Part shown: one piece after another, positions 32,471 to 38,173 of the stretch
How the letters are laid out: each line of letters starts with the position of its first letter
Numbering within the stretch: position 1 is the first letter of the stretch
From: an uncultured Porphyromonadaceae bacterium
GTDB taxonomy: Bacteria > Bacteroidota > Bacteroidia > Bacteroidales > Muribaculaceae
Direction: 5' to 3'
Assembly: GCA_947178175.1 (NCBI GenBank)
Contig: CAMWXI010000005.1
Coordinates: 1 to 40,381, forward strand
DNA: 40,381 bases
The notes under the pieces: model-generated
Told to the model about the DNA's origin: nothing
Seen by the model: the letters and a program-made list of their open reading frames with translations, nothing else
Database searches by the model: none
Made by a program: the position numbers and the translations under genes

Positions 32471-33391
32471 TTAGTGATTAGGGCCAATATATTCGGCCAC
32501 TCTTAATTTGGCACTTCTCGCTCTCGGATTCCTTTCAATTTCATTTTCGGTAGGGGTAATTGGAGAACGTGTTATCATCTTCCACGGAGAAAGAGATTTT
32601 CCGAAGAAGTCTTTCTCCTCCTCGCCATTGACCGAGCCTGTTTTCATAAAGTTTTTGACTATTCTGTCTTCAATCGAATGATATGTGAGAATTGCAAGTC
32701 TTCCTCCCGGCTTGAGCATGGATGGTGTGGACTTAAGGAAAGACTTAAGTGCGTCCATTTCGCCATTGACTTCAATCCGAATAGCCTGGAACACCTGTGC
32801 CAGCTCTTTCTTGAGATTTTTAGGATTCAGAACGGGTTGAAGGATTTCTGTGAGTTGTCCGGTAGTATCTATCGTTTGGTTCTCTCTTGCTTTTACAATC
32901 CGCTGCGCAATCAATGCAGGACGTTTAAGGTCTGTGTAAAGTTTCAGTAGATTGGTGATTTCTTTATCCGACAGTTCGTTAAGCAGAATGCCGGCAGTGG
33001 TTTGTTGAGATTGATTCATTCTCATATCCAGTGGAGAATCACTTCTGAATGAAAAGCCACGGTTTTCGTCGTCAAAATGGTGGAAAGACACACCGAGGTC
33101 GGCAAGAATACCGTTGAAGTCTTCAATTCCATAGAATCTCATAAAATTCCGCATGAAGCGAAAGTTGGAATATACAAATGTAAATCGTGTGTCATCCGGT
33201 ACATTCTGACGTGCGTCGGCATCCCTGTCAAAACCGAAGAGCCTTCCGGAGGGACCAAGACAGGAGAGTATAGCGCGGCTATGTCCTCCGCCACCAAAGG
33301 TGGCGTCGGCGTAAGTGCCTGAAGGCTGAATGTTTAGTGCTGCTATGCTCTCTTCAAGAAGTGCCGGTATGTGGTAGACAATGTTTTCCAT
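32471..33391 (-). CDS. rsmH: 16S rRNA (cytosine1402-N4)-methyltransferase
   Basis: YHIPALLEESIAALNIQPSGTYADATFGGGGHSRAIL, GILADLGVSFHHFD, AILTYHSIEDRIVK. Confidence 0.97.
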   Translation of the reverse strand: MENIVYHIPALLEESIAALNIQPSGTYADATFGGGGHSRAILSCLGPSGRLFGFDRDADARQNVPDDTRFTFVYSNFRFMRNFMRFYGIEDFNGILADLGVSFHHFDDENRGFSFRSDSPLDMRMNQSQQTTAGILLNELSDKEITNLLKLYTDLKRPALIAQRIVKARENQTIDTTGQLTEILQPVLNPKNLKKELAQVFQAIRIEVNGEMDALKSFLKSTPSMLKPGGRLAILTYHSIEDRIVKNFMKTGSVNGEEEKDFFGKSLSPWKMITRSPITPTENEIERNPRARSAKLRVAEYIGPNH

Positions 33392-33415
33392 TTTTCTCTC
33401 ATGCGCTTTGGAATG

Positions 33416-33423
33416 TAAAGTTA
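33416..33423 (-). promoter_or_regulatory. Possible -7 element for the dcw operon (TAACTTTA, one mismatch to TAnnTTTG)
   Basis: 25 bp upstream of the rsmH ATG on the - strand; no convincing -33 TTTG at 19-21 bp. Confidence 0.3.
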
Positions 33424-33550
33424 GTGAATTTTGAAGATAATTTGCATATCCAAATTCTCTTTTTTATATTTTTTTCACAATCTCTACTCCATTGTCCATC
33501 AATTCCCTTTAATGCGTGTCTTTGTAGCGCATTCCTAAGGTTTTGTGTTT

Positions 33551-33562
33551 ACCTCCGGAGGT
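33551..33562. repeat. 12-bp perfect palindrome ACCTCCGGAGGT
   Basis: Read directly between the GT4 gene and rsmH. Confidence 0.7.
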
Positions 33563-33582
33563 GTTTATTATTATCTCGGACG

Positions 33583-33601
33583 AAGCTCTTTAAAAGAGCT
33601 T
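33583..33601. repeat. Palindrome AAGCTCTTT-A-AAAGAGCTT overlapping the GT4 stop codon
   Basis: 9-bp perfect arms around a single central base; GT4 stop (TAA, - strand) at 33590-33592. Confidence 0.7.
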
Positions 33602-34888
33602 GTCAGTGTCTAACACTTTTGCGTAAGTCTTCAGAATTGAGTCAGCCATGCGGTTGTTATCAAAGCGTTGGGCATGTTTCTTCCCTTTAGCGGCATATTC
33701 CTCTCTGTTCGTAGAATCCATGAAGAATCTTATGCTCTCAGCCATCTCACGCGGATTGGCGGGGTCTATATAAATGGCCCCTTCTCCTCCAGCCTCTTCC
33801 AGGCATGAGCCTTTGGCTGCAATAACCGGTGTGTTTCGTTCCAATGATTCCAGAATCGGAATTCCAAACCCTTCATAGAATGAAGGATAAAGCGAACAGT
33901 CGGCTAAAGAATAAAGCAGTGGTAAATCTCTGAAATCTACTTTATTCAGAAATTTCACTCTGTCACTTATTCCTAACTCCTGACTCAACTTTATCATCTC
34001 GCGCTTATATCCGTGATGGTCTGCACCAACTACTACCAGATTAATGCGGGGGAGTGAAGATAGTGCCCGCAGTGTCAGTTCAAGATTCTTACGTTTCTCG
34101 ATTGTTCCGACCTGAATAATGAAATTGTCGGGCAGGTCAAGCCGCCGGCGTATGTCTTCGAAGTCAACACGTTTGAATTCCTGACGGAATATGTCGCTGC
34201 ATCCCTGATAAACTACATCTATTTTCTCTTCAGGAATCCCATAGAATTCCATGATGTCGCGCTTGGTACATTCGCTCACGGCTATTATTCTATCCGCATT
34301 TTTGCAGGATTTGCCGTATTTGTAGTCATATATGATTCTGTCAGGAAGATGATAACAATAGGGTAGTCGGCGATAAATGATGTCGTGAATAGTGACAACT
34401 GATTTGACTTTGGCTCCGGCAATGTTTAAGGGGAGTTCATTGCTTAAACCATGATAGATATCACATTTATCTGCTACTATATTATTAGTAACACCAAATG
34501 TTCGCCAAAGTGCTCCCGAGAATCCTGCAGCGGGTGGGAATCTGAATTCAATGTTTTTAAGTCTGCGGATTGGTTCGAGACGAGGATTGTTGGTGAGCTT
34601 TTCTGTATAAACGAGTAGGGGGAGTGTATCTTCAGGGTCTTCTTTGGGAGTGGAAATATACATTCCGAAATCACGAGTGGATTTCGGATTATTTATTTTT
34701 CCTGTTTCCGGATTGATAGATGTATCTTGACTGAAGGAAAAATTTTTATTATCTGATGACGGAGCATTTTGCAAATTTGCATAATGCTGGAATTTCTTTC
34801 CGACTTCTTCAATGACGAGTCGTGAATAGTTGCCGAGTCCTGTCATATTGCTTACGGCTCTCTTCCCGTCGAAACCTATTCTAATCAT
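33590..34888 (-). CDS. GT4-family glycosyltransferase
   Basis: MIRIGFDGKRAVSNMTGLGNYSR..., VGTIEKRKNLELTLRAL, YPSFYEGFGIPILESLERNTPVIAAKGSCLEEAGG. ATG at 34888 preferred over 34915. Confidence 0.92.
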   Translation of the reverse strand: MIRIGFDGKRAVSNMTGLGNYSRLVIEEVGKKFQHYANLQNAPSSDNKNFSFSQDTSINPETGKINNPKSTRDFGMYISTPKEDPEDTLPLLVYTEKLTNNPRLEPIRRLKNIEFRFPPAAGFSGALWRTFGVTNNIVADKCDIYHGLSNELPLNIAGAKVKSVVTIHDIIYRRLPYCYHLPDRIIYDYKYGKSCKNADRIIAVSECTKRDIMEFYGIPEEKIDVVYQGCSDIFRQEFKRVDFEDIRRRLDLPDNFIIQVGTIEKRKNLELTLRALSSLPRINLVVVGADHHGYKREMIKLSQELGISDRVKFLNKVDFRDLPLLYSLADCSLYPSFYEGFGIPILESLERNTPVIAAKGSCLEEAGGEGAIYIDPANPREMAESIRFFMDSTNREEYAAKGKKHAQRFDNNRMADSILKTYAKVLDTDKLF

Positions 34889-34892
34889 ACCG

Positions 34893-34900
34893 CAAAAATA
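34893..34900 (-). promoter_or_regulatory. -7 promoter element TATTTTTG just upstream of the GT4 gene
   Basis: Matches TAnnTTTG on the - strand, 4 bp before the ATG; no clear -33. Confidence 0.35.
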
Positions 34901-35056
34901 TGAAAAATATTCCAATTAATTGCGTACAACTAATCAGATAGAATCAAATATTGGATTCTCGGTGCTTTATCTTCGGATGAAATGTAGATTAAGACATTGA
35001 AACATAATAAATAAATCGTTTTTTTAGTGGATCATATATTTGGTTTGAAATAGAGA

Positions 35057-35071
35057 ATTTCTTAAAGAAAT
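35057..35071. repeat. Palindrome ATTTCTT-A-AAGAAAT in the divergent intergenic region
   Basis: 7-bp perfect arms, read directly. Confidence 0.6.
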
Positions 35072-35080
35072 CCGATTATT

Positions 35081-35112
35081 TTTCATAGCATAGACAGAAT
35101 TTATTATATTTG
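35081..35112 (+). promoter_or_regulatory. Candidate promoter for ybeY-mnmG
   Basis: TTTC (35081-35084) - N20 - TATATTTG (35105-35112), close to TTTG/N19-21/TAnnTTTG; about 36 bp upstream of the ybeY ATG. Confidence 0.5.
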
Positions 35113-35148
35113 CTATTCTTTCCTTGCTAACAAAACTATTTTATAGTT

Positions 35149-35568
35149 ATGATAGATTTTCAGACTGAGAATGTGGAGATGCCGGTTCTGGATTTCCGCA
35201 AAGTAATGTTGTGGCTTCGTGAAGTAGCCGCCAACCATGGTTATAGAGTAGGAGATTTAGCCTACAGATTCTGTTCTGAAGAAGATATTCTCAGATATAA
35301 TAATCAATATTTGGGCCATGACTATTACACTGACATAATAACCTTCGACTATACTGAAGGTGATATTATCGGTGGTGATATTTTTATTTCAGTCGACACT
35401 ATCGCAAGCAATGCTGAGGATTTAAAACTTCCCTATCGTGATGAATTATTACGAGTCATAGTTCATGGCGTGCTTCACCTTTGTGGCATCAATGATCACG
35501 GACCGGGAGAGAGGGAGATAATGGAGCAGGAAGAGAATAAGGCCTTGTCGCTTTTTAATTCCTTATAA
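35149..35568 (+). CDS. ybeY: Endoribonuclease YbeY
   Basis: HGVLHLCGINDHGPGE = H-x3-H-x5-H zinc motif. Confidence 0.96.
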   Translation: MIDFQTENVEMPVLDFRKVMLWLREVAANHGYRVGDLAYRFCSEEDILRYNNQYLGHDYYTDIITFDYTEGDIIGGDIFISVDTIASNAEDLKLPYRDELLRVIVHGVLHLCGINDHGPGEREIMEQEENKALSLFNSL

Positions 35569-35593: not shown

Positions 35594-37549
35594 ATGAGAT
35601 TCAGCTATGATGTAATAGTGATAGGTGGTGGACACGCGGGTTGTGAAGCAGCTTACGCTTCAGCACGCCTGGGAGCTGCAACGTTGCTTATAACTGCTGA
35701 TCTCAATAGAGTTGCACAGATGTCGTGCAACCCGGCAGTCGGTGGTATCGCCAAAGGACAAATTGTACGCGAAATTGATGCTATGGGGGGGATGAGCGGT
35801 ATCGTTGCAGATACTACTGCCGTTCAATTCCGAATGTTAAACAGGTCCAAAGGACCTGCCGTATGGTCACCCCGTGTCCAGTCCGACAGGACAAAATATA
35901 TTGAAGAATGGAGAAAGATTCTTGACTCGACACAGAATCTTTATCAGATGCAGGATATCGTCACATCCTTTCAATTTGAGAAATCAGATAACGGAACCTA
36001 TAAAATTATCGGAGTTGAAACAGCATTAGGTATTAAGTTAATAGCTAAAAAGGTCATATTGACAGCCGGCACTTTTCTTAATGGATTGATGCATTTCGGC
36101 CCTGTTAAAATTGAAGGAGGAAGAATTTCGGAATCATCGTCATACGGACTTACTTCTCAATTGAAGAAGATTGGGTTCGAGGTTGGACGTATGAAAACAG
36201 GCACTCCGGCAAGAGTAGACGGACATAGCATAGATTTTTCCAAATGTGAAATCCAATGGGGTGATGATGAAGTTTCTGCTGAAAACAATGCTGCGTATGA
36301 CGGAAATGCCGTCCCGGTTGTGAAACAAGATTTTCATAAGTTTTCCTTTCTTCCCAGCGTCAAACGACCATTGGTTTCAAGACCTTGTTTCATTACTCAT
36401 ACCAACTCAGAATCGCATAGGATACTTTCTGAGAATCTTAAAGATTCCCCCTTGTATAATGGTGACATACAAAGTATCGGGCCACGGTATTGTCCAAGTA
36501 TAGAAACAAAGATTGTTACTTTTGCCGATAAAGACAGTCATCAATTGTTTCTTGAGCCGGAGGGTGAGACTACAAGTGAATATTACATCAATGGATTTTC
36601 CAGTTCATTACCATGGAAAGTACAGCTTGACAGTCTTTCATCGATTGAGCCATTAAGCAATATTCAGTTCTTAAGGCCCGGATATGCAATAGAGTATGAC
36701 TATTTCCCTCCGATACAATTATATCACACTTTAGAGACAAAGATAGTTGATGGCTTATATATGGCCGGACAAGTTAATGGAACAACCGGTTATGAGGAGG
36801 CTGCTGCTCAAGGGATGATGGCAGGAATTAATGCCGCAAGACGAGTAAAAGGAGAGGAAGAAGTAATTTTAAGAAGAGACCAGGGTTATATTGGTGTTCT
36901 GATTGATGATTTAGTTACTAAGGGAGTTGATGAACCCTATAGAATGTTCACAAGCAGAGCTGAATACAGAATACTCCTTCGTCAGGATAATGCCGACTCA
37001 CGCCTAACTCCTTTAGGATACGAAATTGGTCTTGCGACAAAAGAGCGTTATGAACAGTTTAAGAAGAAGGAAAGGTTCGTTGCCGAGTTGGTTTCGTCAT
37101 CCGATAAAATCAAGATAAAAGCGGATGTTAGAACTAATGATTGGCTTCTTGGTAAAGGGACGACTGAACTAAAGACCGGGTGCAGAATTGTAGAGTTGAT
37201 AAGGAGGCCACAATTGAATATAAAAGTCTTACGAGAATTATCTTCAACATGGGATAAGTTGCTTAACAATATACCCTCGGATATTAGAGATGAAGTAACT
37301 GAAAGTGCGGAGATATTGATAAAATACGAAGGATATATAAAAAGGGAACAGGATTTGGCAGATAAGCAAAGAAGGCTTGAAGAAGTGCGGATTCCTGACT
37401 ACATTGATTATTTTTCGATGAAATCAATCTCAACAGAAGGGAGACAGAAATTAAACAAACATAAACCGCTTACAATAGGACAAGCAAGCAGAATATCCGG
37501 TGTGAGTCCTTCGGATATCAATGTTTTATTGCTAACCCTAAGAAATTGA
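35594..37549 (+). CDS. mnmG: tRNA uridine-5-carboxymethylaminomethyl modification enzyme MnmG (GidA)
   Basis: YDVIVIGGGHAGCEAAYASARLGA, CNPAVGGIAKG, GLYMAGQVNGTTGYEEAAAQG, MFTSRAEYRILLRQDNAD. Confidence 0.98.
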   Translation: MRFSYDVIVIGGGHAGCEAAYASARLGAATLLITADLNRVAQMSCNPAVGGIAKGQIVREIDAMGGMSGIVADTTAVQFRMLNRSKGPAVWSPRVQSDRTKYIEEWRKILDSTQNLYQMQDIVTSFQFEKSDNGTYKIIGVETALGIKLIAKKVILTAGTFLNGLMHFGPVKIEGGRISESSSYGLTSQLKKIGFEVGRMKTGTPARVDGHSIDFSKCEIQWGDDEVSAENNAAYDGNAVPVVKQDFHKFSFLPSVKRPLVSRPCFITHTNSESHRILSENLKDSPLYNGDIQSIGPRYCPSIETKIVTFADKDSHQLFLEPEGETTSEYYINGFSSSLPWKVQLDSLSSIEPLSNIQFLRPGYAIEYDYFPPIQLYHTLETKIVDGLYMAGQVNGTTGYEEAAAQGMMAGINAARRVKGEEEVILRRDQGYIGVLIDDLVTKGVDEPYRMFTSRAEYRILLRQDNADSRLTPLGYEIGLATKERYEQFKKKERFVAELVSSSDKIKIKADVRTNDWLLGKGTTELKTGCRIVELIRRPQLNIKVLRELSSTWDKLLNNIPSDIRDEVTESAEILIKYEGYIKREQDLADKQRRLEEVRIPDYIDYFSMKSISTEGRQKLNKHKPLTIGQASRISGVSPSDINVLLLTLRN

Positions 37550-37566
37550 TAAAACAGACAATATCT

Positions 37567-37574
37567 TAAATTTG
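37567..37574 (+). promoter_or_regulatory. Possible -7 element TAAATTTG for apt, overlapping parS
   Basis: Matches TAnnTTTG; weak -33 ATTG at 37545-37548 (N18). Confidence 0.35.
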
Positions 37575-37588
37575 TTTCACGTGGAACA
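37573..37588. other. parS: parS-like centromere site (predicted ParB/Spo0J binding site)
   Basis: TGTTTCACGTGGAACA; reverse complement TGTTCCACGTGAAACA equals the 16-bp B. subtilis parS consensus. No other full 16-mer noticed when scanning CACGTG occurrences in the window. Confidence 0.8.
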
Positions 37589-37648: not shown

Positions 37649-38173
37649 ATGGAAATTGAAGAATTAAAAGCGACGATTCGTGATGTGCCTGATTTTCCCT
37701 CAAAGGGAATTATGTTTCGCGATTTAACCACTATGATTAAGAATGGGGAGGCTCTGCATTTGATGAGTAAGGAGATTGCAGATCTTTATCGGGATAAGGG
37801 TGTGACAAAAGTTGTCGGTATAGAATCCCGCGGTTTTATCGGTGGTTCTATTCTTGCCTACGAACTGGGATGTGGCTTTGTGCCTGCTCGCAAGCCGGGT
37901 AAACTTCCTTCGGTAACAATCAAGATGGCTTATGCCAAGGAATACGGTGTTGACACGATAGAACTCCATTCCGATGCTATCAATGAAAATGATGTTGTGG
38001 TGCTCCACGATGATTTGCTTGCAACAGGAGGAACAATGAATGCATGCTATAATCTGGTGAAGAGTATGAATCCTAAAAAGATCTACATCAACTTCATTGT
38101 GGAGTTAACGCAGTTGAACGGCCGTGAGAATCTTCCTAAAGATTGTGAGATTACCTCTCTTCTGAAATATTGA
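37649..38173 (+). CDS. apt: Adenine phosphoribosyltransferase
   Basis: RDVPDFPSKGIMFRDLTTM, GIESRGFIGG, VVLHDDLLATGGTM (PRPP motif). Confidence 0.97.
   Translation: MEIEELKATIRDVPDFPSKGIMFRDLTTMIKNGEALHLMSKEIADLYRDKGVTKVVGIESRGFIGGSILAYELGCGFVPARKPGKLPSVTIKMAYAKEYGVDTIELHSDAINENDVVVLHDDLLATGGTMNACYNLVKSMNPKKIYINFIVELTQLNGRENLPKDCEITSLLKY

Follow-up and report, generated by a model that had tools for sequence, protein, structure and literature searches.

A predicted chromosomal parS site downstream of mnmG in a Bacteroidales genome and the association of parS with mnmG across Bacteroidota

The window, that is, the whole 40,381-nucleotide stretch of DNA analysed here, is contig C5 of a 1.9-Mb assembly (genome G000; 205 contigs, 84% complete). 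Judged by its gene content, the genome belongs to the family Muribaculaceae. On its + strand, the window has ybeY (TIGR00043, 89 bits), mnmG, apt and uvrC (TIGR00194, 529 bits; both NCBIfam models) in this order, and a 16-bp palindrome, the candidate parS site, lies in the 99 bp that separate the stop codon of mnmG from the apt start (Table 1). Upstream of this block, the dcw cluster on the - strand and ybeY-mnmG on the + strand are separated by about 1.8 kb (33391-35149), an interval at which G+C drops from about 0.49 to 0.40. The same two groups of genes are about 54 kb apart in the family member G115, where the predicted origin lies between them. The junction in the window is either a lineage-specific rearrangement of the origin region or the result of a contig joining two distant pieces.

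Table 1. Coordinates of the candidate parS site and of the two genes that flank it
Feature	Position	Strand	Basis and remarks
mnmG (gidA)	35594..37549	+	TIGR00136, 786 bits vs cut-off 525; parS fixed beside mnmG across Bacteroidota
Predicted parS site, TGTTTCACGTGGAACA	37573..37588	none (palindromic)	Exact consensus match, unique in assembly; locus kept in genus, family and phylum
apt, adenine phosphoribosyltransferase	37649..38173	+	NF002636, 207 bits; flanks parS on the side opposite mnmG

The sequence-only reading had described a near-perfect 16-bp palindrome carrying the parS consensus, intergenic beside mnmG and unlikely to match by chance, and each part of this description stood up. The 16-mer shows 0 mismatches to the consensus TGTTYCACGTGRAACA, and comparison with its reverse complement, TGTTCCACGTGAAACA, makes it palindromic at 7/8 base-pair positions. 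For a 16-mer with 4-fold degeneracy such as this consensus, and with equal base frequencies, simple arithmetic predicts about 4e-5 exact matches in 40 kb and about 0.002 in 1.9 Mb. When up to 3 mismatches to the consensus were allowed, the site was the sole match in the window (0.45 expected). Across the assembly it was again alone below 3 mismatches, the 25 other matches all having exactly 3; the resulting total of 26 is close to the background given by a reversed control pattern (21 matches). The genome scan thus returned one site and not the scattered matches that the earlier reading had named as the adverse outcome. The mismatch thresholds of one or two were chosen by us.

The same genome encodes a ParA-ParB pair that could read such a site, its adjacent parA and parB genes being located on contig C148 and not on that of the window. 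The ParB, which is the sole PF02195 protein of the genome, aligned to Caulobacter ParB (6t1f) over residues 4-240 (E 4e-53), and its GERRxRA and ENIQR motifs, which we take to be the CTP pocket motifs of the ParB family, are intact. At the four positions that distinguish parS from Noc specificity it has R, H, R and G, and so keeps R and G at the equivalents of Caulobacter R173 and G201; these two residues are absolutely conserved in ParB orthologs, the remaining two specificity positions being variable (PMC7383237). The R and G were likewise kept in 15 chromosomal-type ParBs of relatives, with F or Y followed by K or R between them. The Noc-binding sites (NBS) known from Firmicutes resemble parS in being 16-bp palindromes bound by a ParB paralogue, but have other bases at half-site positions 1 and 6 and a reader with Q173 and R201 (PMC7383237); they are described as scattered around the chromosome (PMC4331003). 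We rejected an NBS identity for the site, as it has the parS bases and the ParB has R and G, not Q173 and R201, and at 239 bits falls short of the Noc model's cut-off of 315. Most of the Bacteroidota ParBs seen (L183-L197) have K or R at the equivalent of Caulobacter A184, together with the parS-type R173 and G201; lysine at that position has been characterized as permissive for Noc-type specificity (PMC7383237).

We read the palindrome as parS, the centromere of the chromosome, in a Bacteroidales bacterium, with a probability of roughly 0.93 judged from sequence comparison, and predict that it is bound by ParB. The site is an ordinary parS, itself a known kind of element. By analogy with the known ParABS mechanism, for which loading, spreading and ParA movement have been described in general terms (PMC7333895), ParB dimers would bind the 16-mer and, closing as CTP-dependent clamps, slide onto the DNA of mnmG, apt and uvrC to form a partition complex, and ParA would then separate the two newly copied origin regions.

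Conservation among relatives, whose absence the sequence-only reading had named as refuting, was found in genus, family and phylum. In the genus (31 assemblies, including that of the window), parS lies 10-146 bp downstream of mnmG on the same contig in 31/31 mnmG copies, and the sole assembly without mnmG is also without parS. At the family level, where counts over 148 genomes were tallied by hand from the results table, the site was present at no more than one mismatch in 147/148 genomes, with exactly one site in about 120 and more than one in 27; the reversed pattern gave about 16 matches in all 148 genomes together. Among the family loci that were fetched, the site is at the mnmG 3' end in 29/30 and apt is on its far side in 28/29. 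The exceptions are L018, where the contig ends, and L046, where the site is beside or in uvrC and mnmG is out of view. Within these loci, which were selected by the pattern itself, the flanking sequence varies among relatives and the 16-mer is constant. The incompleteness of the assembly, with its 205 contigs, and the multiple sites in those 27 family genomes would fit a different view, namely that the site is a genuine parS by descent and the main centromere sites lie in the missing part. This seems very improbable, given that most of the near-complete genomes in the family carry a single site and that the mnmG-adjacent site is the constant one in the genus.

We extended the comparison to the phylum with mnmG as the anchor, because loci should not be selected by the parS pattern. 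The 129 mnmG-anchored loci comprised 80 named genome loci, 29 from a phylum-wide draw and 20 of the more diverged mnmG genes in that draw. A site within 300 bp of mnmG was exact in 84/129 loci and had at most one mismatch in 116/129, whereas 60 composition-matched shuffled palindromes reached at most 1 of the 129 loci. The side of mnmG depends on the lineage: the site is downstream in Bacteroidales, on both flanks in most Flavobacteriales, often as tandem arrays, and was seen upstream in Cytophagales. In the order-wide search, sites paired at a distance of about 1.9 kb represent the two flanks of mnmG. The gene beyond parS is not always apt in other lineages. Upstream of mnmG, Flavobacterium loci (L152, L133, L135 and others) have parS-like sites in tandem arrays of as many as 12, and in the array of L152 five sites, spaced by about 117 bp, have ACATGG as a variant core.

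These patterns bear on two further explanations of the palindrome. Operators with a CACGTG core are common, and the site is 60 bp upstream of apt, as one would expect if an ordinary transcription factor recognizing CACGTG regulated mnmG or apt from here; however, the full 16-bp parS consensus is present and not just the core, there is usually one 16-bp site per genome, and side and neighbouring gene vary by lineage while mnmG is constant, which leaves an operator with hardly any probability. An RNA hairpin or transcription terminator at the mnmG end, or a leader element of apt, is equally implausible. Although the short palindrome just past the stop codon could form a 7-bp stem as RNA, folding of the intergenic RNA is no more favourable than that of its shuffles (z -0.73), no terminator-like site was called in the mnmG-apt gap, and in other lineages the site occurs upstream of mnmG (Cytophagales) or on both sides and in tandem arrays (Flavobacteriales), with a far neighbour other than apt in some cases.

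For the predicted parS, we next consider the distance to the replication origin and to the genes of its presumed partners. The sequence-only reading had placed the right end of the window in an origin-proximal domain and had pointed out that mnmG is often near oriC and parAB in other phyla. GC skew is positive throughout the window and shows no switch, giving no origin position from the window, so that its origin proximity is drawn from relatives. In the complete chromosome of B. fragilis Q1F2, the mnmG-linked parS (4597 kb) is about 104 kb from the minimum of the cumulative GC skew (4493 kb), and a second parS site, with one mismatch, is at 4587 kb. In G115, the skew minimum (1184 kb) and parS (1152 kb) are 32 kb apart. 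Here, mnmG and the dcw cluster sit on opposite sides of the skew minimum, both directed away from it, and dapB-lepB lies about 50 kb from it; the marker genes of the window are therefore origin-proximal in G115. GC skew was uninformative in G130 and G093, which have no usable switch, and G290 has a coarse switch only. Origin proximity thus holds for parS in the two relatives, and the window itself lacks the skew switch that would mark it. An origin inside the window was also considered, the genes being divergent at about 35 kb, and was rejected, as the skew keeps its positive sign across this point and the DnaA-box matches are limited to three loose ones.

Vicinity to parAB did not hold here. 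The genes are on another contig in G000, and the distance between parB and parS is about 630 kb in G291, 650 kb in G130 and 780 kb in B. fragilis, and reaches 870 kb in G093. The dnaA gene, about 1 Mb away in both B. fragilis and G115, was rejected as an origin marker, in agreement with the report that oriC is far from dnaA in Bacteroidota (PMC4755523); likewise, the origin is not always at dnaA in gut Bacteroidota species (PMC10197239). In the relatives measured, parAB and dnaA are roughly 0.6-1 Mb from parS.

In searches for ScpA (PF02616), the protein was not found in G000 or in 12/13 relatives, and was present in 9/14 control genomes and in a distant member of the phylum (G450). As G000 is only 84% complete, the negative result rests on the near-complete relatives. 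None of the Bacteroidia genomes searched gave a ScpA match, and ParB is present in all those checked for it. A Hi-C study found no known condensin in Muribaculum intestinale or Bacteroides caecimuris (PMC10197239). Given this report and the ScpA searches, loading of Smc-ScpAB is unlikely to be the role of parS here. Most likely, parS works via ParA-ParB alone, or with an unidentified condensin.

Sites of this kind, their clustering near the origin and chromosomes with a single site were already known (PMC7333895, citing the main parS survey, Livny et al. 2007; PMC10197239 for gut species). The informative part is the position of parS, fixed beside mnmG throughout the phylum and far from parAB and dnaA. 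Compared with the ParABS systems of Bacillus subtilis, Caulobacter and Pseudomonas, the present one shares the same 16-bp palindrome, ParA, a ParB with parS-reading residues, and an origin-proximal site in two relatives; it differs in that mnmG and not parAB is what parS is fixed to, both parAB and dnaA being several hundred kb off in relatives, and in that ScpA was not found. Closer at hand are the parS sites reported in silico for M. intestinale and B. caecimuris, species of the same phylum for which no known condensin was found either, and where a parS cluster, GC skew and read coverage served to place the origin; the passages of that study considered here give no gene neighbourhood for the sites, and the mnmG linkage and its spread through the phylum are added here (PMC10197239). 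We found no report of an mnmG/gidA-parS linkage in Bacteroidota in the searchable papers, a set that leaves out most subscription journals, and we make no claim of priority.

Few studies have addressed chromosome segregation in Bacteroidota, and dnaA is no guide to the origin in this phylum (PMC4755523; PMC10197239). A parS fixed to mnmG provides a simple landmark of the origin region for draft genomes and gives ParB imaging or ChIP a defined target. It also offers a natural example in which ParABS acts at a single site remote from parAB, apparently without Smc-ScpAB. As a tentative scenario, which we consider somewhat less probable than its negation, the Bacteroidota centromere may have been beside mnmG since before the phylum diversified; parAB and dnaA would have come to lie hundreds of kb off, with ScpA missing from Bacteroidia, and the union of mnmG and parS would have been kept by something besides linkage to parAB, perhaps by ParB spreading over mnmG or by a function of the nearby origin. 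In B. subtilis, gidA is close to oriC and parAB, so the Bacteroidota linkage may be what is left of an ancient cluster of origin genes, parAB having since moved away.

At no more than one mismatch, parS was not found in 23/198 genomes of the order and in 1/148 of the family (G140). A clear ParB was missing in 3/24 parS-less genomes of the order vs 0/24 parS-bearing ones; the idea that loss of parS tracks loss of ParB in the order was therefore set aside as holding only weakly. Since most of the parS-less genomes tested keep ParB, variant sites may be used there. Three members of one genus (G148, G255 and G338) and others of the order combine a clear ParB with no parS at this threshold; these genomes possibly have a diverged parS consensus and would then offer a natural test of ParB-parS co-evolution. 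In a 1.2-Mb genome of the order (G228; L050), ParB was not found and the only parS-like match is away from mnmG, as if the ParB-parS system had been lost. Finally, parS-like sites inside coding sequence were observed at L112, L116 and L139 (within the mnmG match) and at L046 (uvrC match).
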